Part shown: positions 8,224 to 62,936 of the stretch, piece by piece
Layout of the letters: every line of letters begins with the position of its first letter
Position numbering within the stretch: position 1 is the stretch's first letter
Source: a virus
DNA length: 64,000 bases
IMG/VR virus record: IMGVR_UViG_3300035698_010479
Coordinates: 62,001 to 126,000 of that record
Strand: one strand, 5' to 3'
Made by a program: the position numbers and the translations under genes
Notes under the pieces: generated by a model
Databases searched by the model: none
Told to the model about the DNA's origin: nothing
Seen by the model: only the letters and a program-made list of their open reading frames with translations

Positions 8224-8967
8224 CTAAATAGTTATAATCTCTGCGCAATCTTTGTGTATTATTACTTGGTGTTCCACATGACAACTTATTTTACCAGAAT
8301 TTGTTACAACTGTCCAGCCATCATTTAATCTATGATTATCAGAAGGACCGTCTACAAGCATTGGTTCTATACAAATACACATACCTGCTTTTAATTTGAT
8401 ACCTTCTATATCCCTACCAAAGTTAAATATTGGTGGGTCCATATGTAAATCTCTTCCTATACCATGCCCAATGTAGTTTTTAACAACAGAGAAGCCGTAT
8501 TCTAATGCGTAGGCTTCAATTACTCTTCCAATAGTACCTACAGTAACTCCTTCTTTTATTTCCAATATAGCCCCATTTAAAGCCATTCTAGACACATCCA
8601 GTAATTCTTGTTTTTCAACACTAATAGTACCAACACCTGTAGAAAAAGCAGCGTCACCGTAGAAACCATTTTTATAGACACCAACATCAATACTTAGTAA
8701 ATCCCCTTCCACTAGTTCCTTACTTGTTGGGAAACCGTGTACTATGACTTCATTAGTACTGCAACAAGTACAAAAAGGAAAGCCTCTATACCCCTTGAAT
8801 GCGGGTAGTCCTCCTTCAGATAGTATTATTTTTTCAGCTATGCTATCTAATTCTAAAGTAGATATCCCAGGAACTACTAATTCAGCTAGTTCTCTATGGA
8901 CTAAAGCTACTATTCTACCACTTTCTCTCAACTTGTCTAAGTCACTACTAGTATGTGTAACAACCAA
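8224..8967 (-). CDS. map: Type I methionine aminopeptidase
   Basis: 247 aa metallopeptidase that removes initiator Met. Metal ligands are visible in order: Asp (SIDVGVY), Asp (FYGDAAF), His (GHGIGRDLH), Glu (CIEPML) and Glu (HVEHQV). I place the start at TTG 8967, preceded by AAGGAG, since the family begins with a DLDKLRESGRIVA helix; an in-frame ATG at 9105 has no SD and would add unrelated residues. Ends TAG at the family's usual length, showing that TAG terminates here. Confidence 0.85.
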   Translation of the reverse strand: MVVTHTSSDLDKLRESGRIVALVHRELAELVVPGISTLELDSIAEKIILSEGGLPAFKGYRGFPFCTCCSTNEVIVHGFPTSKELVEGDLLSIDVGVYKNGFYGDAAFSTGVGTISVEKQELLDVSRMALNGAILEIKEGVTVGTIGRVIEAYALEYGFSVVKNYIGHGIGRDLHMDPPIFNFGRDIEGIKLKAGMCICIEPMLVDGPSDNHRLNDGWTVVTNSGKISCHVEHQVIIHKDCAEIITI

Positions 8968-9082
8968 AGTACTCTCCTTATGTCTGTGTTTGCGCCCCCA
9001 AGTACTACTCACAATGTAGATAGTACTACTGATAGTGTATGGTTTGTTTGTTGTTTGTTGGGGTTTATCCCATCTATATTTT

Positions 9083-9150
9083 AAAAAATTTTGTGAAGTG
9101 AGCAAGCCCTTGAACCGAAACTTATTTCATACCTACAAGATTTTTACAAA
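9083..9150 (-). repeat. Leader element copy B (diverged 68-base repeat)
   Basis: On the minus strand this lies just after the 9159-9356 gene and about 115 bases before map. It matches the element at 9365-9430 over its whole length at roughly two thirds of positions, sharing TATGAAA, CGGT-CAA, GGCT-GCTC-CTTC and AAATTTTT blocks. It has no coding continuity. It may be a structured 5' leader or a decayed repeat. Confidence 0.5.
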
Positions 9151-20220: not shown

Positions 20221-20246
20221 TATTATACTCCTTATATTAATATGTT

Positions 20247-20321
20247 TGTTCCTAGTGAGAATCGAACTCACAACGAAACGCAGGTTTAGAATCTGCCGCT
20301 CTACCACTGAGCTATAGGAAC
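20247..20321 (-). tRNA. tRNA with CUA anticodon (candidate amber suppressor)
   Basis: 75 bases. Acceptor GTTCCTA/TAGGAAC, discriminator A, D arm GCTC...GAGC, T arm GTGAG TTCGATT CTCAC. The 5+7+5 anticodon arm is GCAGA TTCTAAA CCTGC, giving anticodon CUA, which reads UAG. Oddities: an A-C mismatch at the loop-closing pair (31-39) and an 8-base variable loop. If the loop were shifted by one base the anticodon would be UCU (Arg), but then the stem does not pair. Charging amino acid cannot be told from the sequence. Confidence 0.75.
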
Positions 20322-20323
20322 AT

Positions 20324-24698: not shown

Positions 24699-25142
24699 TT
24701 ATTCACACCAGTTTTTTTCTTTTGTCCCACCATTATACTTAACGGCTAGGCCTTTGTCAAGTAAAATAGTAGCTAAGTCACCTTCGGCTGTTAAAACTTC
24801 TGCGACAATTCTAAAATATTTTCCTCGTCTAGTATTAAGAAGTGATACCTTGGTATGATCTCGCAGTATAACATATACAGCCTCTTTAGCCGCTAATGCA
24901 AGTTGATGCTCCTTTTCACATTTACTACGCATCTCAGGTGTATCAATACCAAATACACGTACTGATATTTTATAGCCAAATAACTCTGGTATGTCATTTA
25001 TATTTACAGTTAAAGTATCTCCATCATAATTACTAATAACTTCTACATCATAAAAATTTTCATATGTTTTTTCTGACGCATTACTATTATCATAACTACA
25101 AAAAGTACATAACAATAAAAATGATACTAATAGGCTTTTCAT
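24699..25142 (-). CDS. Secreted staphylococcal-nuclease (thermonuclease) homologue
   Basis: 147 aa. N-terminal signal peptide (SLLVSFLLLCTFC, about residues 3-20), perhaps a lipoprotein or cleaved form, then the SNase barrel: YDGDTLTV, VRVFGIDTPE with catalytic Arg/Asp, EKEHQLALAAKEAV, RGKYFRIVAEV and a C-terminal KEKNWCE. Would degrade nucleic acids in the periplasm. SD AAGGAG. Confidence 0.85.
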   Translation of the reverse strand: MKSLLVSFLLLCTFCSYDNSNASEKTYENFYDVEVISNYDGDTLTVNINDIPELFGYKISVRVFGIDTPEMRSKCEKEHQLALAAKEAVYVILRDHTKVSLLNTRRGKYFRIVAEVLTAEGDLATILLDKGLAVKYNGGTKEKNWCE

Positions 25143-25793: not shown

Positions 25794-26090
25794 TTAAACT
25801 ATAACTACTGAAATTGGGCCAGGAGCCGCTGGTGCCAAAAAATCTACTGTTACATCCTCTATGATTGAAGGTTCTGAACGATTCCCAGCGTCATCAATTG
25901 CCACAATATTAAAAGTAAATGTACCATCCAAATCAGGTGCTGCGTCATTTAGAATTATTTCTAGATTACCATCTGCATTTGGTACAATGTCAGCAACAGG
26001 GTATAACTTTGTAGCTAGGCCCCAAGAAAGTTCATAAGACACAACATCAGTAGATGTTGATGGTGCAAAAACTAGTTTAACTATATTCAT
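25794..26090 (-). CDS. Fibronectin-III/Ig-like domain protein
   Basis: 98 aa, all-beta. FAPSTSTDVVSYELSWG, then GTFTFNIVAIDDAGNRSEPS, typical of an Fn3 fold, and a Pro/Ala-rich end. Such free-standing domains decorate phage virions or bind carbohydrate. SD AAGGAG. It neighbours the cytochrome gene. Confidence 0.7.
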   Translation of the reverse strand: MNIVKLVFAPSTSTDVVSYELSWGLATKLYPVADIVPNADGNLEIILNDAAPDLDGTFTFNIVAIDDAGNRSEPSIIEDVTVDFLAPAAPGPISVVIV

Positions 26091-26130: not shown

Positions 26131-26742
26131 TTATCTAATAGGTCTTTTCCTTTTCTTATCACTACTTCCGACCTTAATATGACAATCTAAACAACCCTCG
26201 TGTATCATTTTATCTTCTTTAGCGAACAACACTTGTCCTTTTGAGTGGGGGTAGTGACAGATATTACAAGTTACCTTATCATCTTTATACCATACCAGAA
26301 GATTATTAGAGCCAACCAATAGCTCTTTGGTCATAGGATCTACTGCATTTCCACCAGTTACTGGATCAATTACCTTTCTCCCTATAAACCTACCTGGGGG
26401 GTTGTATTGTGTACAAATAACGTTATCATGTTTAACTATAGCGGTTGTATTAAAAGGGTCATGGCAAGTCATACAAGACGAGTAGCCACTCTTTCTGGCC
26501 CTATCCGGGTGTCCTGCTGCGTGAAGGTTACCTACACCTTGTATATAAGTAACAATAGGCACTACTTCTGGGCAATCTTTACATATAATCGGATCTGGAC
26601 ATACCATTTCAATACACTTACTAGGTTGGGTTAACACTAAAGGCCCACCCTCCTCAGCGCTGAACCACACCTTATCCGCAGCAGCTGCGGCCGTAATGGT
26701 AAAACATAAACACATTATAAGTATTACTAATATCTTCTTCAT
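26131..26742 (-). CDS. Secreted three-haem c-type cytochrome
   Basis: 203 aa. Signal peptide (KKILVILIMCLCFTITAAAAA, about residues 2-22 in full). Three CxxCH haem c attachment motifs: CMTCH (90-94), CNICH (159-163, followed by YPHSKG) and CLDCH (184-188). Additional His residues (LHAAGHPD, KHDN, HEG) could be distal ligands. This fits multihaem respiratory cytochromes of the periplasm. Basic end (KKRKRP). SD TAGGAGG. Codon use and spacing match neighbours, so it is integrated in the phage operon. Very unusual for a phage. Confidence 0.85.
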   Translation of the reverse strand: MKKILVILIMCLCFTITAAAAADKVWFSAEEGGPLVLTQPSKCIEMVCPDPIICKDCPEVVPIVTYIQGVGNLHAAGHPDRARKSGYSSCMTCHDPFNTTAIVKHDNVICTQYNPPGRFIGRKVIDPVTGGNAVDPMTKELLVGSNNLLVWYKDDKVTCNICHYPHSKGQVLFAKEDKMIHEGCLDCHIKVGSSDKKRKRPIR

Positions 26743-26876
26743 TTAGCCTCCTACAAGTAAAATTAATTATCAAAACCTTTGTTAAACTACTAAATTTTAG
26801 TAAGGTAGCTTTACTAAGTACAAACTAAAATGTTCTAGTGACCATGCTTCTTTACCTAAAATAAAAGATACTGGTA

Positions 26877-27649: not shown

Positions 27650-28003
27650 TCAGTCATCTTTTTCAGAAGCTAGCCTCATTGCTTCTTTTTTTAAATCAGT
27701 TCTAGCATCTAAAAATCTTGTGTATAATTTATACATGAAAAATACTATTATGCCAGTTTTACCAGTACTTGTCAAAGCGGCTAAATCTGTTATATTATTT
27801 GTGGAATGTAAAGAAGTTACCACGTCTTGTACAGTGTCTGCATACTTATTTAATGTCTCAGGTGATGGTAGCTTTGAGGAAATATCATTACCTAAGATTT
27901 CCTTAATTAAGTATAAACTGCCAAGTAAAACACCAGCCAGAGACTGCCCTTCCAAAGACTGATATGCAGGTTTTATTTTGTTATCTTTTATTTTAGTAGC
28001 CAT
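27650..28003 (-). CDS. Possible holin-like membrane protein
   Basis: 117 aa with two hydrophobic stretches (about 22-38 and 83-97) separated by a polar helix, Lys-rich N-terminus and charged C-terminus. The layout resembles some class II holins, and the next genes upstream are lipoproteins. Weakly supported. Confidence 0.45.
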   Translation of the reverse strand: MATKIKDNKIKPAYQSLEGQSLAGVLLGSLYLIKEILGNDISSKLPSPETLNKYADTVQDVVTSLHSTNNITDLAALTSTGKTGIIVFFMYKLYTRFLDARTDLKKEAMRLASEKDD

Positions 28004-28018
28004 TTATAAAGACCCCTC

Positions 28019-28579
28019 TTAAATTACAGTTATACTTAAAATTTTTACAGCTAAAGTAAGGACAGTAACTACAAGTGTAGCTACTTGACTCATATTATTA
28101 CTTGTTGGGTTATCAAGTAACTTATCAATTTCTGAATAAGCTAGTATAGCTTGGTCATCAAAACTTTTAAACATGTTTTGGTCTTCGCCGTTAAAAGAAT
28201 CTAAATGTACTATAACAATTTTTCTGGCTTTTGCATAGCTAGTCTTAGTTATATCCCACATAAGACTTATATCGTATGTGTCAAAAGTAACAGTACCCAT
28301 GTTAATAATAGTGTTGTACTTCAATAATAAAAGCTTTATAGCCGCCTCTACTTCTAGTAGATCGTTCCATTCACTAGCTGTAAAAATATTATCTTGCTCT
28401 TGTTTATATGCCAATAAGTATTTAACTTTTGTATATGTAGTATCTAAAGTATTTATATACATAGACAATGTGTTAGTATTCACAACATACTTCTGCGGTT
28501 GAGTAGTAGTACAACCACCCAGCAATAACATAATGGATAACATAAAACCAATAATTATTCTATTTGTATTGTACTGCAT
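28019..28579 (-). CDS. Lipoprotein with C-terminal hydrophobic segment
   Basis: 186 aa. Signal with lipobox LLGGC (Cys22) then TTTQPQ, so outer-membrane or inner-membrane lipidated. The middle is helical; the C-terminus (VATLVVTVLTLAVKILSITVI, taken in two parts) is hydrophobic. The ATG overlaps the upstream stop (TAATG). A spanin-like function is possible but unproven. Confidence 0.7.
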   Translation of the reverse strand: MQYNTNRIIIGFMLSIMLLLGGCTTTQPQKYVVNTNTLSMYINTLDTTYTKVKYLLAYKQEQDNIFTASEWNDLLEVEAAIKLLLLKYNTIINMGTVTFDTYDISLMWDITKTSYAKARKIVIVHLDSFNGEDQNMFKSFDDQAILAYSEIDKLLDNPTSNNMSQVATLVVTVLTLAVKILSITVI

Positions 28580-29169
28580 TACTCGATTACACCTGGGTCC
28601 GTTGCTGGTATAGTTTCTGTAATACTATTTGTTGTTTGTGAACCATCACCAGAAGTTATATGACTATCAGTGGCAGTGTTATGTGTACCTGCACCGTTAA
28701 TACCTGCTACAGCAATATCTTTGGCGTTATTGGATTGAGTAATTCCTAAAGCTACACCAGCTAAACCAAGTAAAGTTCCTCCCATCTTTTGTACAGATTC
28801 TCCTACAGTCTCAGGCGCTTCGATCTTACCAAGAGTTACTTTAGGTGTGGTAGCATCAGCCAAAGCTCTTGTAGTCAACCACTTGTCTTCCAACACCATA
28901 AGCATAAGCGGTGTAATAACATCATCCGTTTTGTCTGGTGTTGCTGCTACTGCTTGTAGTGCATTACTAGTGAGTAGTAGCATCTTTTCCTCGTGTTTTA
29001 GTTGTGCAGCTTCTCTTTTGGCTGATTCTTTATCGGCCATAAGTTGAAGTGTTACATTTTGTTCTTTTACAGCATTGGCGTAGCTAGTATATTCTTTACC
29101 AGCACAACCAACTAAAGACGTACATAAAGACAGTACGATTAATATTGCAAACACCTTTCTAATTTTCAT
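28579..29169 (-). CDS. Lipoprotein, unknown function
   Basis: 196 aa. Signal peptide with lipobox SLVGC, then AGKEYTS. Central helical segment with Lys/Glu (MADKESAKREAAQLKHEEK) and a Gly/Thr/Ser-rich C-terminal end. Together with the next gene it forms a lipoprotein pair, as expected in a Gram-negative host. Confidence 0.7.
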   Translation of the reverse strand: MKIRKVFAILIVLSLCTSLVGCAGKEYTSYANAVKEQNVTLQLMADKESAKREAAQLKHEEKMLLLTSNALQAVAATPDKTDDVITPLMLMVLEDKWLTTRALADATTPKVTLGKIEAPETVGESVQKMGGTLLGLAGVALGITQSNNAKDIAVAGINGAGTHNTATDSHITSGDGSQTTNSITETIPATDPGVIE

Positions 29170-31352: not shown

Positions 31353-33209
31353 TCAAACAGAAGCTTGTGACTCTTCAGGGCCTTGTTGTGGTTGTTCGGC
31401 TGGTTGTGCTTGTGCGTATAGTTTTTCTGATATAGGGTGAAATGCTAAGTTAAGTTCCTCAATCTTTTTAGTAAGTTCTTCTACAGAGACATCTTTAGAA
31501 ATAAGTTCACGAATCTCTGATATTTTAATGGCTAGGTCGTCTTTTTCCTCTTCAGAAACCTTATCAGAGTTATCCTTAATAGTTTTCTCCATTTGATAAG
31601 CGGTATTTTCGGCTTGGTTTTTTGCTTCAATTAAACTACGTTTAGCTTTATCGGCCTCTGCATGTTCCTCTGCTTCTGCTACCATACGGGCAATATCATC
31701 TTTAGAAAGCCCTGAAGAAGATTCAATTTTTATTGACTGCTCTTTACCTGTACCTAAATCTTTTGCTGACACGGTTAAAATACCATTAGCGTCAATATTA
31801 AAACTAACTTCAACCTGTGGTACACCTCTTGGCGCTGGTGGGATACCTACCAAATCAAATCTGCCCAATGTTTTATTATCCTGCGCCATTTCACGCTCGC
31901 CCTGAATAACGTGTATGGAGACAGCGTTTTGATTGTCAACAGCTGTGCTAAAAACCTGGGTTCTCAATACAGGTATTGACGTATTTTTATCTATAATTCT
32001 GGTAGCTACACCACCTAGAGTTTCAATGCTAAAAGAAAGCGCCGTAACATCAAGTAGTAATACATCAGTAGTAACGCCTGCAATAATACTTGCCTGAATA
32101 GCAGCACCCTGTGCTACTACTTCATCAGGATTTACTGATTTATTTAACTTTTTATTAAAAAAATCTTCAACCACTTTTTGTACAGCAGGTATACGTGTAG
32201 ATCCACCCACTAAAATAATCTCATCAATACTATCTTTGGTTAGATGAGCATCATTTAACACGGTCTTACAAAGAACTAAGATTTTATCTACTAAATCAGA
32301 TGTCATACTATCAAACCTAGACCTAGTTAACTTAGTATTTAGATGTTTTGGACCAGAAGCATCCGCTGTGATGAATGGTATATTAATAGTTACCTCCATA
32401 GCAGAAGATAGCTCTTTCTTGGCTTTCTCAGCTTCATCTTTCAGGCGCTGAAGGGCCATATTATCATTACGCAGGTTAATACCTTCATTCTTTTTGAAGT
32501 CGTCTACCAACCAATTAACGATAACTTGGTCAAAATCAGTACCTCCAAGATAACTATTGCCGAATGTACCTATAACTTCAACAACATTATCACCTAAATC
32601 TAATATAGATGTATCACTGGTACCTGCACCAATGTCTACGATCATGACCTTTTCTTCTTTATCGCCTTCAAAGCCGTAAGCAAGTGCAGCAGCTGTAGGT
32701 TCATTAATTATACGTTTTATATCTAGCCCAGCTATCTTACCTGCATCTTTTGTAGCCTGTCTTTGGGCATCTGTAAAATACGCAGGTACAGTAACAACTG
32801 CTTCTGTTACTGTTTCACCTAAGTAATCCTCAGCGTATTTCTTCATCTCTGCTAATACAGCTGCAGATATTTCTACAGGTGACATTAATTTACCATCAAT
32901 ATTAATTAATACTTCACCGGAGGGACCCTCACTTAATTTAAAAGGTGCTATCTTTATAAAATCTTGAACTTCCTTATCCTTATATAAGCGGCCTATAAGT
33001 CTTTTTGCTTCATAGACTGTTCTTTCTGAGTTGGTGACAGCCTGTCGTTTAGCTGCACCACCTACTAATTTAGTGTCATTAGTAAATGCAACTACACTTG
33101 GGGTAGTTGAAGTACCATCACTAGAAAAAATAATTTTTGGTGTACCACTTTCCATAACTGAAACACATGAAAAGCCTGTTCCAAGGTCTATTCCAACAAT
33201 CTTTCCCAT
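31353..33209 (-). CDS. dnaK: Hsp70 chaperone
   Basis: 618 aa, complete Hsp70. Begins [17 protein letters not shown] (phosphate-1 loop), includes [12 protein letters not shown], a phosphate-2 loop, and [15 protein letters not shown]. The substrate-binding domain and lid follow, ending in a Gln/Glu-rich tail. It refolds proteins with DnaJ (62172-62936). AAGGAG before ATG. Full-length DnaK in phages is uncommon. Confidence 0.95.
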
Positions 33210-46420: not shown

Positions 46421-48148
46421 TTAACTACATCTCGAATAGCCACAGCCCTCGTTAACACACTTAATGCACCCCTCGGCATTTACCAGAGAAGGTTCTCCAC
46501 AAGTTGGGCACTTGTTATCATCCCCAACTAAAGCAAAAGCATCTACGTATTTACTTAAAACTCTAGAAATAGCTGTACTAAAATCAGAAATACTGCCATT
46601 TGTTTTTTTAAGTTGCTCTACTATATACTTTGGTAAAGCCCCATGTCTTAAAGCCAAGCTAAGTAATCTAGTCATACCCTTCTGCCCATCAGTCATTAAA
46701 ATAGCAGCAAGGTCTTTGTAAATAACTGGAGACCTTCGTATAACTACATCTAATTCGTATTTACCTTTACCTTGTTTTCTTATTATACCACTATTACAAG
46801 TTTTAGGCAAGTACAAATCTTCAGATGTGCCACAAAAAACCTCATAAGCTTTACCATCAAGTAGCCCAACAAGAACCGTCCACATTTCACCTTTTATAGA
46901 TGTATAAAAAATATCACAAGGTAACTCTTTAGGTCGCTTTGGTGCACAATTTGGAACTATACAAAAAGGTCTTGCCTCATCCTTACAGCCTGTTGCTGAC
47001 TTCTTCTCAAAGTTAGCCTCACTTGTTTTAGGATCTTCGAAAAGTAAAATACCCTCACGCGAACCATCGACATATACAGACACTGCTCTAACCCCGTGAT
47101 TATAAGCCTCCATATAGATAGTTTCTACATCCTTAACCGTAGCTGTAGCAGGCAAATTGTATGTACAACTAATAGCTGCATCTACCCACTTGTATACATT
47201 TCCCATTAATTTAATTTTCTGTAACGGGTCAATGTGATGAGCGGGTTTAAAAAAACCTTTTGGCAAATTTTTATTTATAATAGCTACCAAACCCAAACCT
47301 ATAGTTCCATCCTCATCCAAAACAGACCCAGGAAAAGCATCCAAGATCATATAATCACTACTACTTGGGTCGAGTTTACCAAGAACATATTGTTTTATTT
47401 TATCTGGTATAATAAAATAATGAGTATATTTTCCTTTGTCTATTGCTCTTGTCCTTCTCCAATAATACGGGCCTGGAAAAGGTTCTACACCAGATGAAAA
47501 ACAAGGTGTAGGAAAAGTACTAGACAATGACCCAGTAGGTGCTATAGACATATGGGCCATATTACGCATATGAGTTACTTTAGTATAGTCACCGCCGAAT
47601 AGCTCATCCACCACGTTCTTAAAATACGAAGAACTCATAAGCGCTTTAGGGCTACTTATCATCTCAAATGCTGGTGCATTACCTTTCTCTTTACCTAACT
47701 CTATTGACGCCTTAAATACCTCACATGAGTACCGCTTAAAAAATTCTCCTACATTCTTAATAGCATCATCAGAGTCATAGGGTAGGTCTTGCTTAAGTAA
47801 CCAACCATGTATGTTAGTAATACCAAGCCCCAGTTCTCTGGTCTGTTCCAAGATCCACGCTTGTTCTTTTAAGGGTGATAATTTATGGTATGCTTCATAA
47901 CTAACAACATTGTCCGATAGTCTTACAATATACGGAACAAGGAACGCTAGCTCCTGCGTATACTCTTCTATATCAATTGAAAACATTGCTTGGTTCGGTG
48001 AAAGTAAATTACATACACCATACGGTGGTAAACTTTTTTCCGAATTTTTTACTAACACACCTTCTACATAATAATTATGGTTATCTTGTACCTCAATATT
48101 ATATGTAGGCTTCTTTTCACTATTGTTTACTATACTAATTATTTTCAT
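46421..48148 (-). CDS. nrdJ: Class II ribonucleotide reductase C-terminal part fused to a C-intein
   Basis: 575 aa. Residues 1-35 are a C-intein (block F-like DNHNYYVEGVLVKN) ending in Lys-Asn, and Ser36 is the +1 residue of the C-extein (SEKSLPPYG). The 540 extein residues hold the class II barrel features PTGSLSSTFPTPCFSSG and HGVRAVSVYVDGSREG, plus the C-terminal zinc-type region CPTCGE...CIKC and SRCS with thiol pair. B12-dependent NrdJ makes dNTP precursors and needs no oxygen. Joins in trans to the product of 49226-50482. Confidence 0.9.
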   Translation of the reverse strand: MKIISIVNNSEKKPTYNIEVQDNHNYYVEGVLVKNSEKSLPPYGVCNLLSPNQAMFSIDIEEYTQELAFLVPYIVRLSDNVVSYEAYHKLSPLKEQAWILEQTRELGLGITNIHGWLLKQDLPYDSDDAIKNVGEFFKRYSCEVFKASIELGKEKGNAPAFEMISSPKALMSSSYFKNVVDELFGGDYTKVTHMRNMAHMSIAPTGSLSSTFPTPCFSSGVEPFPGPYYWRRTRAIDKGKYTHYFIIPDKIKQYVLGKLDPSSSDYMILDAFPGSVLDEDGTIGLGLVAIINKNLPKGFFKPAHHIDPLQKIKLMGNVYKWVDAAISCTYNLPATATVKDVETIYMEAYNHGVRAVSVYVDGSREGILLFEDPKTSEANFEKKSATGCKDEARPFCIVPNCAPKRPKELPCDIFYTSIKGEMWTVLVGLLDGKAYEVFCGTSEDLYLPKTCNSGIIRKQGKGKYELDVVIRRSPVIYKDLAAILMTDGQKGMTRLLSLALRHGALPKYIVEQLKKTNGSISDFSTAISRVLSKYVDAFALVGDDNKCPTCGEPSLVNAEGCIKCVNEGCGYSRCS

Positions 48149-49148
48149 TATATAATCCTTCTATTTTTTGTATATACAACTCTATACTACCATAATATTT
48201 AATAATTGATTTATAACTAAATCTAGAATTAGGTCTACAATGCATTTCTTTATATAAAATTATAGTAGTCTCATCAAGTTTACCATATAATGCGTAAAGC
48301 TTTAAACCGTGTTTAATAAGTAAACTATACATTATTTTTTTCTTATCTTCTTCAGTATGCAGATGTCCGCTAGTACCATTTAATTTAGCTTTATAGTTAC
48401 ACCACGAACCCTTACAACTTGCTTTTTTGCAGTATTGCTTGTCTAATAAATCATATGTGTCTACAACATCTCCACAAAATATACATATATTTTGTTTCTT
48501 AACACCATATTTTTGTACACGTAAAATTTCCTGGTGTTTAATCTGTGCAGTACTTATACTAATTCTAAGTTCTGGCCTAGTTTTATGTGTAATTTGCATA
48601 GCAATACTACGCTTTTTACGAACCTCTGGTCTGCTTTGACACTCTAACATAAGCTTGGTGTGTGCTTCTAAACGCTCCTCGGAAAATTTAATACCGTATG
48701 ATGGGTTATTACTTCCAGACATATCATATGAATCAGACCGATCTATATACTCCAGCAAACAGCTTTTAAAGTCTTTGTGCTGTTTATAATAAGCTCTATT
48801 GTACGTTAAAGCGTTGTAGTTAATACCTAATTCCAAAAAATATTTTTTATACAGCGATAAATACGTAGTACATTCTTTAATAGAGTCTTTTATTTCAATA
48901 ATACTATTTAATATTGTATAAGTATTATCAATATAAATGAAAAAATCAGGTTTATAGGTACGATTATCAATAACATATACATGTTGTTCCATCAAGTAAT
49001 AAACATGTTGCTTATCTAAAAGTAAGCACTGTATTTTTTCTAACATTGACCTACAAAAAACACGTTTATTATCCCATGTGGTATGGTAACCGCAATAACC
49101 TCTTCCATTTTTAAAAGAACTTTTTTTTTGACTTCCTCCAACCGACAT
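48135..49148 (-). CDS. Free-standing homing endonuclease between intein halves
   Basis: 337 aa from ATG 49148 (GGAGG 8 bases upstream). Nuclease-like part: FCRSMLEKIQ, TYKPDFFIYI, IIEIKD, giving a PD...EIK arrangement of the PD-(D/E)XK kind. Then a NUMOD3-like DNA-binding motif (SNNPSYGIKFSEERLEAH) and a CIFCG zinc pair with YCKKASC. It overlaps the C-intein gene by 14 bases and follows the N-intein gene by 77. It fits the fractured-gene arrangement first described for split inteins. Ends TAG. Confidence 0.8.
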   Translation of the reverse strand: MSVGGSQKKSSFKNGRGYCGYHTTWDNKRVFCRSMLEKIQCLLLDKQHVYYLMEQHVYVIDNRTYKPDFFIYIDNTYTILNSIIEIKDSIKECTTYLSLYKKYFLELGINYNALTYNRAYYKQHKDFKSCLLEYIDRSDSYDMSGSNNPSYGIKFSEERLEAHTKLMLECQSRPEVRKKRSIAMQITHKTRPELRISISTAQIKHQEILRVQKYGVKKQNICIFCGDVVDTYDLLDKQYCKKASCKGSWCNYKAKLNGTSGHLHTEEDKKKIMYSLLIKHGLKLYALYGKLDETTIILYKEMHCRPNSRFSYKSIIKYYGSIELYIQKIEGLYNENN

Positions 49149-49225
49149 ATTTACATCCTCCATAATTAATAAGTGTTATAGCATAGTAGAGTTAGTTAAA
49201 TATAGGGATGTAATTAATAGTATTA

Positions 49226-50482
49226 TTAAAGTTCCATCAAGTCATCTTCAAGAGTTAAATCTTTAGCCTGTACAATTCCTCTATTAGATGTGTAAAACTT
49301 ATGATCTGGTGTACATTCTATAGAGAGCCCACTACCTAGGTTTAAGGTTAGTGTTTTTACAGGTATACCCGCTTCACGAGCAAACACATCCACTATTGGC
49401 TTTAATTCATCAAGATTAGTACTTGTATTTCTGGATAAAGCCATGAAATCTTCCCCATCTAAAATGCGCTTTATAATATCCTTAATCAGTATATTGCCTT
49501 TATCTGTAAGTATATGATTTTCATCAGTAAAACAGCAGGCGTTTGTAGAAATTATTTTAAATCTTGCATCACCAGTATCCAAATATATCTGATGAACCAT
49601 GGAACCTTCCCTTAGAAGGTCTATATATTGTACACCAGGTTCTGCGTGTTTAAACGCTTGTTCCGCTATTAAGTCGAATAACTCCGTAGCTTTTATTGTT
49701 TTAGATATACGCTTATATTTACTTCCTTCCTCAAACTCAAAAAATAATTCCCAACTAGCATCGGCCTTCACAGCTTCGATAAATTTATTAGAAACCTGCA
49801 CAGAAATATTGGCATTTTCCAAAACACCTTTTTCTGCTTTTGCTCGTACAAACTCATATATATCTGGGTGATGATCTTTTAAACTAACCAATATAGCAGG
49901 CTTTCTACCTTTCTGCCCCACCCATTCACCATTATCTACAAGTTTACATATCCATGGTACAGCACCTGTGGATTCTTCTGCAGCATTATTTACTGGAGCA
50001 CCTCTAGGGCGGAGTACTGAAGCATCAAAACCTAAACCCTGTCTAAAAGCTGCACACTTCATTATATCATAGTCACATTTAGAAATACTTTCCAAGCTAT
50101 CACCAGATAGAGGTAATGTGGTACAATTTAATAAGGATTTCAAGCTTGTAGCACCTACACCAGCAAGAACGCTTCCCCCTGGTCTAAACCAACCAAGCCA
50201 CATGAGTGCAAACCACCTATTACTGTATAGATCTTGCAGTTCTTTGGTTTTCTCCATAGTGGCTAACCCTGAAGATACACGCCAAAACACATCAGCAGGA
50301 GTTTCTATTTTGATATAAGGAGTGTCGGTGTCTGTTATTACTTTACCGTATTCATCCCATTTTGTACAATATTTAGTATCAAACATTTTATGAGCGTACT
50401 CATCTTCTGTAAAGTACTCTCTGCTGGAAATGTTCTTTACATTTTCGTACTTAATTAAATCTAACATCTCAATTGATAACAT
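49226..50482 (-). CDS. nrdJ: Class II ribonucleotide reductase N-terminal part fused to an N-intein
   Basis: 418 aa. Residues 1-316 are NrdJ (RWFALMWLGWFRPGG, PLSGDSLES, ASVLRPRGAPVNNAAEES, QKGRKPAILVSLKDHHPD); the last extein residues are TNAC. Cys317 begins the 102-aa N-intein: block A CFTDENHILTDKGNIL, block B-like SIECTPDHKFYTSNRGIVQ. The frame stops with TAA. Splicing in trans would give TNAC-SEKS, exactly the family active-site string (TN-x-C-x-E). Confidence 0.92.
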   Translation of the reverse strand: MLSIEMLDLIKYENVKNISSREYFTEDEYAHKMFDTKYCTKWDEYGKVITDTDTPYIKIETPADVFWRVSSGLATMEKTKELQDLYSNRWFALMWLGWFRPGGSVLAGVGATSLKSLLNCTTLPLSGDSLESISKCDYDIMKCAAFRQGLGFDASVLRPRGAPVNNAAEESTGAVPWICKLVDNGEWVGQKGRKPAILVSLKDHHPDIYEFVRAKAEKGVLENANISVQVSNKFIEAVKADASWELFFEFEEGSKYKRISKTIKATELFDLIAEQAFKHAEPGVQYIDLLREGSMVHQIYLDTGDARFKIISTNACCFTDENHILTDKGNILIKDIIKRILDGEDFMALSRNTSTNLDELKPIVDVFAREAGIPVKTLTLNLGSGLSIECTPDHKFYTSNRGIVQAKDLTLEDDLMEL

Positions 50483-61662: not shown

Positions 61663-62179
61663 TTGTTTCTCCCATATAAAGATAGCCATAATCCTTAGGA
61701 TATCTATATTTATATTTTTCCAACACCTCATCCGCGTAATATAATAACTGTGACTGTGCATCTATTATATCATTATCCTTTTTAAATGTCAAGTTATCTA
61801 TATCTAATAAATAACATACAAAATAAAAAAGATCCTCTTTTGTACGGGCAGCGAAATATGATTTAACTTTAGTGTTAGTGACTATAAATGGATCTATTTC
61901 TAAAATTTTCATACAGGTATACTTTGCTACACCTGCAAATTCACTTAATATTTTTAATGTACTAATATTAGCTCCTGAAAAAGTATCTTCTTGAACAATA
62001 AATTCTGGTTTGAATTTAAGTAGTACTATCTCTAAATCTCTACTAAATAACAGTAGTCTAGCGGATCTTTGTAGTTTAGGACTTGTAACAATAACCCCCT
62101 TAATAAAAGTTTTGCCATCACTTGTAAAACACCAACCAGTACAAGACGCTGACACGTCTAGACTTAATATGCTACACAT
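61646..62179 (-). CDS. RuvC-like Holliday junction resolvase
   Basis: 177 aa. Acidic residues in order: [19 protein letters not shown], and [11 protein letters not shown], the RNase-H fold catalytic set of RuvC-type resolvases. It resolves branched replication or recombination DNA. It overlaps dnaJ by 8 bases. Confidence 0.8.
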
Positions 62180-62936
62180 TACACACGTCTTTAATCACGT
62201 TAAGCTGCTCAGGTGTTATCTTACTTGCTGTAGGCATTACTAAATTAAGCTGTATAAACACATTACCGTTAGGTCCACCGTTTCTACCTTTACCACCTTT
62301 ACCTATAAACCTTAGTACAGTACCGTGGGTGGCTCCATCGGGTATGGCTATATCAATTTCCTTTTCCACAACTATATGGCCAGAATCACAGGCGGAACAC
62401 TTTGTTTTAATCAAAAAACCTCTACCAGAACATGCTGTGCATGGTACTTGTGACATCATTCTAACGTTAAATTGACTAATAACTTGATCCTTACTACCTC
62501 TTCCTTGACATTCCGAGCATGTAGTTCTGTCAGATGCACCAGTTCCTTCACAAATATCACAAGGTTCTACGATATTAAATTTAATATTTTTAGTTACACT
62601 TGTTAATATGTCGTACAAATTAACTGCAAATTGTATGTTGACATCCTGCCCAGGCATAGCAAATGGTTGTCTATTGTTTCCACCACCCATACCAAAATGG
62701 TTTTTAAAGAAATCATGTATATCAAAATTGTTGAAGCCAGACCTAGGGTGGTCATGTTGTTGTCTCTTGCCTGGATCTGATAGTATCTGGTAGGCATCGT
62801 TTATTTCTTTAAACTTGGTGTCATCACCGTTATTTTTATCAGGGTGATACTGCAGTGCTAACTTTCTAAACGCTTTTTTAATGTCATCGTCGGAAGCACT
62901 AGTAGGTACACCTAATATCTTATAATAATCTTTCAT
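62172..62936 (-). CDS. dnaJ: DnaJ-type co-chaperone (short)
   Basis: 254 aa. J domain with HPD ([10 protein letters not shown]), G/F-like linker, and a zinc region with [24 protein letters not shown] and CSACDSG, then a shortened C-terminal domain ending in [11 protein letters not shown]. Shorter than the usual about 370 aa. Acts with the DnaK at 31353. Confidence 0.9.

Follow-up and report, generated by a model that had tools for sequence, protein, structure and literature searches.

A putative phage-encoded, exported three-CxxCH c-type cytochrome in a jumbo tailed phage contig

The putative cytochrome gene and its neighbourhood

Here, we analyse a gene that probably encodes a three-haem c-type cytochrome, together with the genes around it, in a stretch of phage DNA of 64,000 nucleotides (the window; coordinates in Table 1). 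The ORF has 203 codons, running from ATG to TAA. Its product begins with what was judged by eye to be a Sec-type, type I signal peptide (MKKILVILIMCLCFTITAAAAA-DKVW, ending in AAAAA-DKVW), continues through a Cys/Pro-rich stretch (CIEMVCPDPIICKDCPE) that precedes CMTCH, and has an insert of about 65 residues between motifs 1 and 2. Three CxxCH motifs appeared in none of 200,000 shuffles of the mature protein, and five histidines lie outside the motifs, four of which are invariant in relatives. An earlier, sequence-only reading of this DNA had listed the ORF, its three CxxCH motifs, the YPHSKG that follows one of them, a signal peptide, a normal Shine-Dalgarno sequence and extra histidines, and each of these is borne out by the sequence. 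The same reading placed the gene within a phage operon, in agreement with flanks made up of a DUF1353 / tail-assembly-chaperone-like gene, DnaK, tRNAs and DNA polymerase. The base composition of the gene is somewhat off from that of the window (40% vs 33% G+C), and a promoter scan near it stayed at chance level. A second cytochrome on the contig was ruled out, as every other ORF across its 228 kb has at most one CxxCH.

Table 1. Features of the cytochrome gene and of selected neighbouring genes, in window coordinates
Feature	Position	Strand	Evidence
Three-haem c-type cytochrome gene (putative), 203 aa	26131..26742	-	ORF; PF09699 above cut-off; orthologues L002, L095, L128-L132
Strong Shine-Dalgarno AGGAGG, 4 nt upstream of ATG	26747..26752	-	Sequence
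Signal peptide, residues 1-22, cleavage site inferred	26677..26742	-	Sequence; signal-like hydrophobic N-terminus common to all orthologues
H74-x3-H78, candidate distal haem ligand pair preceding motif 1	26509..26523	-	Invariant in all rows of alignment A3; ligand role inferred
Haem motif 1, CMTCH, residues 90-94	26461..26475	-	C, C and H invariant in A3
Haem motif 2, CNICH, residues 159-163, then YPHSKG	26254..26268	-	A3; within PF09699 stretch 158-189; H166 invariant
Haem motif 3, CLDCH, residues 184-188	26179..26193	-	A3; H181 before motif invariant
Ig-like-domain ORF, 98 aa, 40 bp downstream of cytochrome	25794..26090	-	PF19077, E 7.8e-4, below curated cut-off
Staphylococcal-nuclease-like protein, signal-like N-terminus	24699..25142	-	Conserved in L002
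Small holin-like membrane ORF	27650..28003		No family match
Two lipoprotein-like ORFs	28019..29169		

The window is part of an IMG/VR record of 228,458 bases that encodes a major head protein, terminase, UvsX-like recombinase, DnaB-like helicase, ligase, DNA polymerase, thymidylate synthase, DnaK and many tRNAs, and this set of head, terminase and replication genes identifies the contig as a jumbo tailed phage. Among the best 80 of 188 IMG/VR contigs, which represent a large, common and mostly uncultured clade, the head protein keeps 77-95% identity; its likeness to the head proteins of Bacillus phage G and of Tunturiibacter phage Tunturi_5 is only distant.

Scans of viral sequences returned a 52-kb contig (L002) carrying an orthologue of the cytochrome with five CxxCH motifs. 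Window and L002 have a common gene order: DnaK, a 157-aa ORF, a methyltransferase, two lipoprotein-like ORFs, a small membrane ORF, DUF1353, the cytochrome, the Ig-like ORF, tRNAs and a nuclease. Because this independent contig keeps the same order, an assembly chimera was ruled out as the origin of the window cytochrome. Between the two contigs the cytochromes are 44% identical, against 62-88% for 10 of the 11 neighbours compared; one lipoprotein-like ORF is 41% identical. The Ig-like ORF, which is possibly co-expressed with the cytochrome, has its counterpart after the L002 cytochrome in the same order (8790-9095, 72% identical). A caspase-domain (Peptidase_C14) ORF lies between DUF1353 and the cytochrome in L002 (7028-7909, plus strand) and has no counterpart there in the window.

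Family assignment, relatives and conservation

The window protein scores 23.1 bits against Paired_CXXCH_1 (PF09699, Pfam), above the curated cut-off of 20.6, with the best stretch confined to residues 158-189, and 11.8 bits against the sister model TIGR01905, below its cut-off of 25.2. Weaker credible Pfam and NCBIfam matches were to HmcA, GSU2203 decahaem, DmsE-type decahaem, NrfB, cytochrome c7 and c3 models, all below curated cut-offs, so that membership of the c7, c3 or NrfB families is indicated by weak matches only. Stray weak matches to PTCRA, Herpes_UL55, UshA-like and similar models were treated as chance. The protein has no match in PHROGs, and neither sequence nor profile comparison found a relative of solved structure, a lone match to rusticyanin (E 0.78) being treated as chance. 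AlphaFold2 modelling with the window protein as lead sequence reached pLDDT 34, and with the five-haem L002 protein pLDDT 36 (pTM 0.19), from a shallow alignment of five related sequences and with no cofactors placed; models of this quality speak neither for nor against bound haem.

Among bacterial proteins, those of Paired_CXXCH_1 (PF09699 / TIGR01905) are alike in the CNICH...CLDCH spacing and histidines, and differ in that the HxxxH before motif 1 and the insert of about 65 residues fall outside the model and that the protein here is phage-encoded. The small periplasmic cytochromes c7 and c3, and NrfB, resemble it in size, export, a bis-His-like pattern and the weak profile matches. To our knowledge, the c7, c3 and NrfB families have neither the Cys/Pro-rich linker near the N-terminus nor the insert that separates motifs 1 and 2.

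Beyond L002, orthologues were found on a 234-kb contig (G039) whose head protein belongs to the same clade and in five near-identical loci (L128-L132). The three related phage lineages that join the window's all have five CxxCH motifs in their copies, and the sampling effectively amounts to four lineages, of which two are close. Taking at least two CxxCH motifs on one exported chain to define a multihaem cytochrome, the window protein has three and its relatives five, with a signal-like N-terminus in all. The cytochrome gene of G039 and of the L132 group is flanked by a radical-SAM gene on one side and a 211-aa ORF on the other. The cytochrome is thus found in viral genomes, between viral genes and on more than one contig, as the synteny of window and L002 and the copies in G039 and L132 show. 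It was not found in the clade records G016, G029, G032 and G044 (fragments of 119-189 kb). A search for the locus through DUF1353 or the methyltransferase gave only one new near relative (L153), whose contig shows no cytochrome but ends a short way on. The different locus in G039 and L132, together with the absence from clade fragments, points to an accessory gene subject to movement or exchange between related jumbo phages, and the family as a whole is best described as putative phage-resident, small, exported multihaem c-type cytochromes that are accessory in a large jumbo-phage clade.

A relative was found neither in the 50,697 phage records of INPHARED nor in the 72,556 plasmids of PLSDB. 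Two scans of 84,980 prokaryote genomes with a small set of short peptide patterns yielded 63 and 61 stretches, of which none was confirmed; such scans reach close relatives only, which leaves room for a distant host source.

In alignment A3 (the window protein and its orthologues), 59 of 203 residues are invariant, including 18 of 21 Cys and His residues and 41 of 182 others (Fisher p 1.7e-8, with columns taken as independent and rows that are related). The invariant set comprises all six haem cysteines, the three haem histidines, H74, H78, H166 and H181, as well as the non-haem cysteines C43, C48, C54 and C110. The four non-motif histidines are candidate distal haem ligands, and would suffice for bis-His ligation of all three haems. 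Purifying selection is shown for the G039 and L132 copies (dS 0.40, dN 0.03, dN/dS 0.075), the one pair from which the ratio derives, other distinct pairs being saturated at synonymous sites.

The five-haem forms have an extra module at the C-terminus (LCxxCH...H..HA...CTxCH), preceded in G039 and L132 by a Thr/Pro-rich linker. The window copy ends before this module, and the next ORF, 40 bp on, leaves no space for a remnant. Five haems occur in the three other lineages, so a loss in the window's own lineage is the more economical explanation, and the three haems of the window copy are probably the derived state. Its divergence, greater than that of most neighbours, and its two fewer haems suggest that its role may be relaxed or changed.

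On these family matches, orthologues and conserved residues, the identification of a phage-encoded, exported three-CxxCH c-type cytochrome, as the sequence-only reading had proposed, is supported, and that the protein is a c-type cytochrome at all appears very likely. That reading had also named clearly zinc-binding homologues as a reason to abandon the assignment; zero matches were to zinc-binding families, and the relatives have five CxxCH motifs. It is true that bare CxxCH also occurs in zinc proteins and that AlphaFold2 returned no usable model, as would suit zinc-binding or structural motifs in a protein other than a cytochrome. Against this stand the signal peptide, the three to five CxxCH motifs, the invariant extra histidines and profile matches to multihaem cytochrome models. 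We consider such a protein highly improbable, and the zinc-protein reading was rejected on the family matches and conservation.

Proposed role and alternatives

Phages are well documented to carry auxiliary genes for photosynthesis and for sulfur oxidation; multihaem cytochromes underlie a large part of anaerobic respiration and of extracellular electron transfer. Phage-carried proteins with cytochrome c motifs, SoxD among other sulfur genes, have been read as auxiliary metabolic genes (PMC8190135); SoxD is a subunit of sulfur oxidation, unlike a multihaem electron shuttle, and no relation is claimed. The Borg elements of Methanoperedens archaea are reported to carry multihaem cytochromes (PMC12660748). 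The likeness lies in multihaem cytochromes on large extrachromosomal or virus-like elements, whereas Borgs are archaeal and of uncertain nature and the present contig, with its terminase and head genes, belongs to a tailed jumbo phage. A search of open-access literature, with preprints and most subscription papers outside it, gave no report of a phage multihaem cytochrome, and one coded by a phage is provisionally new to the literature.

We propose that the jumbo phage makes a small, soluble multihaem c-type cytochrome inside its host, which the host Sec pathway would export and whose three CxxCH motifs would receive haem from the host cytochrome c maturation system, with conserved histidines as second axial ligands. 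The cytochrome could then act as a periplasmic electron shuttle that joins a respiratory or extracellular electron-transfer chain of the host, and might benefit the phage by sustaining energy supply or redox balance during infection. The relatives would do so with five haems in two modules, of which the window copy would retain the first, three-haem module. Taken whole, this mechanism of a periplasmic multihaem electron shuttle as an auxiliary metabolic gene has, in our judgement, a little better than an even chance of being right. Counted against it are that no redox partner gene was seen beside the cytochrome, that the gene is accessory, and that the AlphaFold2 confidence is low and solved-structure relatives are lacking by sequence.

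The sequence-only reading had offered a receptor mimic or decoy beside the metabolic role, and a surface function of this kind could also take the form of a superinfection-exclusion factor: by resembling or occupying a surface cytochrome used for phage entry, the protein would block other phages or adsorption to debris. Its exported type, its place among other exported proteins (the lipoprotein-like ORFs and the signal-peptide nuclease) and the divergence of the window copy, which would suit an arms race, agree with this; a pure decoy, however, need not keep all haem ligands as conserved as they are, the protein has no surface anchor (neither lipobox nor sorting tail), and the narrow genome scans found no similar host cytochrome. 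We regard a surface function as rather unlikely, and favour an auxiliary metabolic role over a receptor mimic or decoy. A haem-loaded redox protein might instead serve a lysis or envelope programme, or protect against oxidative or metal stress, apart from respiration. Exported and membrane proteins are nearby, among them the holin-like ORF, and the four invariant non-haem cysteines hint at disulfides or at some thiol function in addition to the haems; the neighbourhood is different in G039 and the L132 group, so any tie to lysis genes is not conserved, and we hold this too to be rather unlikely.

A captured host gene, functionless in the phage and decaying in the window lineage, would account for the absent two-haem module, the raised G+C content and the accessory distribution. 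Such passive cargo is improbable given that the gene is kept in four phage lineages, that dN/dS is low in the testable pair, and that in the window copy the frame and all remaining haem ligands are intact.

Under the electron-shuttle mechanism, which we prefer, some phages probably act on energy metabolism at the host cell envelope. A bolder version, which we put forward as a speculation with a rather low chance of being correct, is that one branch of jumbo phages has a family of exported multihaem cytochromes of its own, with a distinct Cys/Pro linker and insert, through which an infected cell is wired to an electron donor or acceptor beyond the normal chain of the host; viruses would thereby control extracellular electron transfer. 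If the phage cytochromes work, viruses contribute to the electron flow of bacterial respiration wherever these phages live, and whether infected cells go on respiring via a viral electron carrier becomes testable.

Further observations on the contig

Two secreted proteins of the phage score over the Pfam cut-off for PEP-CTERM (G000:C1:47697-48350 and 49358-50014; L005 7697-8350 and 9358-10014), one of them with a CxxxCH motif (CRYDCH), and PEP-CTERM matches also occur in clade members G013 and G032. The two proteins suggest a host with exosortase, which the phage may use. The expected host is a Gram-negative bacterium that has cytochrome c maturation and multihaem cytochromes as well as exosortase; the sequence-only reading had named Desulfuromonadales and Geobacterales as possible host groups. 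A tRNA with a CTA anticodon (tRNA-Pyl according to ARAGORN, possibly an amber suppressor) is present in the window (20246-20322, minus strand) and in L002 (15533-15604, plus strand), and TAG is still the stop codon in about 15% of the contig's long ORFs. A ribonucleotide reductase gene (46421-50482, minus strand), with its best match to the B12-dependent type, runs into an intein start (TIGR01445), and the ORF at 48135-49163 between the reductase halves is perhaps a homing endonuclease. The window also encodes a full-length DnaK (31353-33209, minus strand), which L002 has too, and a DnaJ-like protein (62172-62936, minus strand). Elsewhere, a potassium-channel-like protein combines ion-channel and TrkA-N domains (G000:C1:1567-2607, plus strand).
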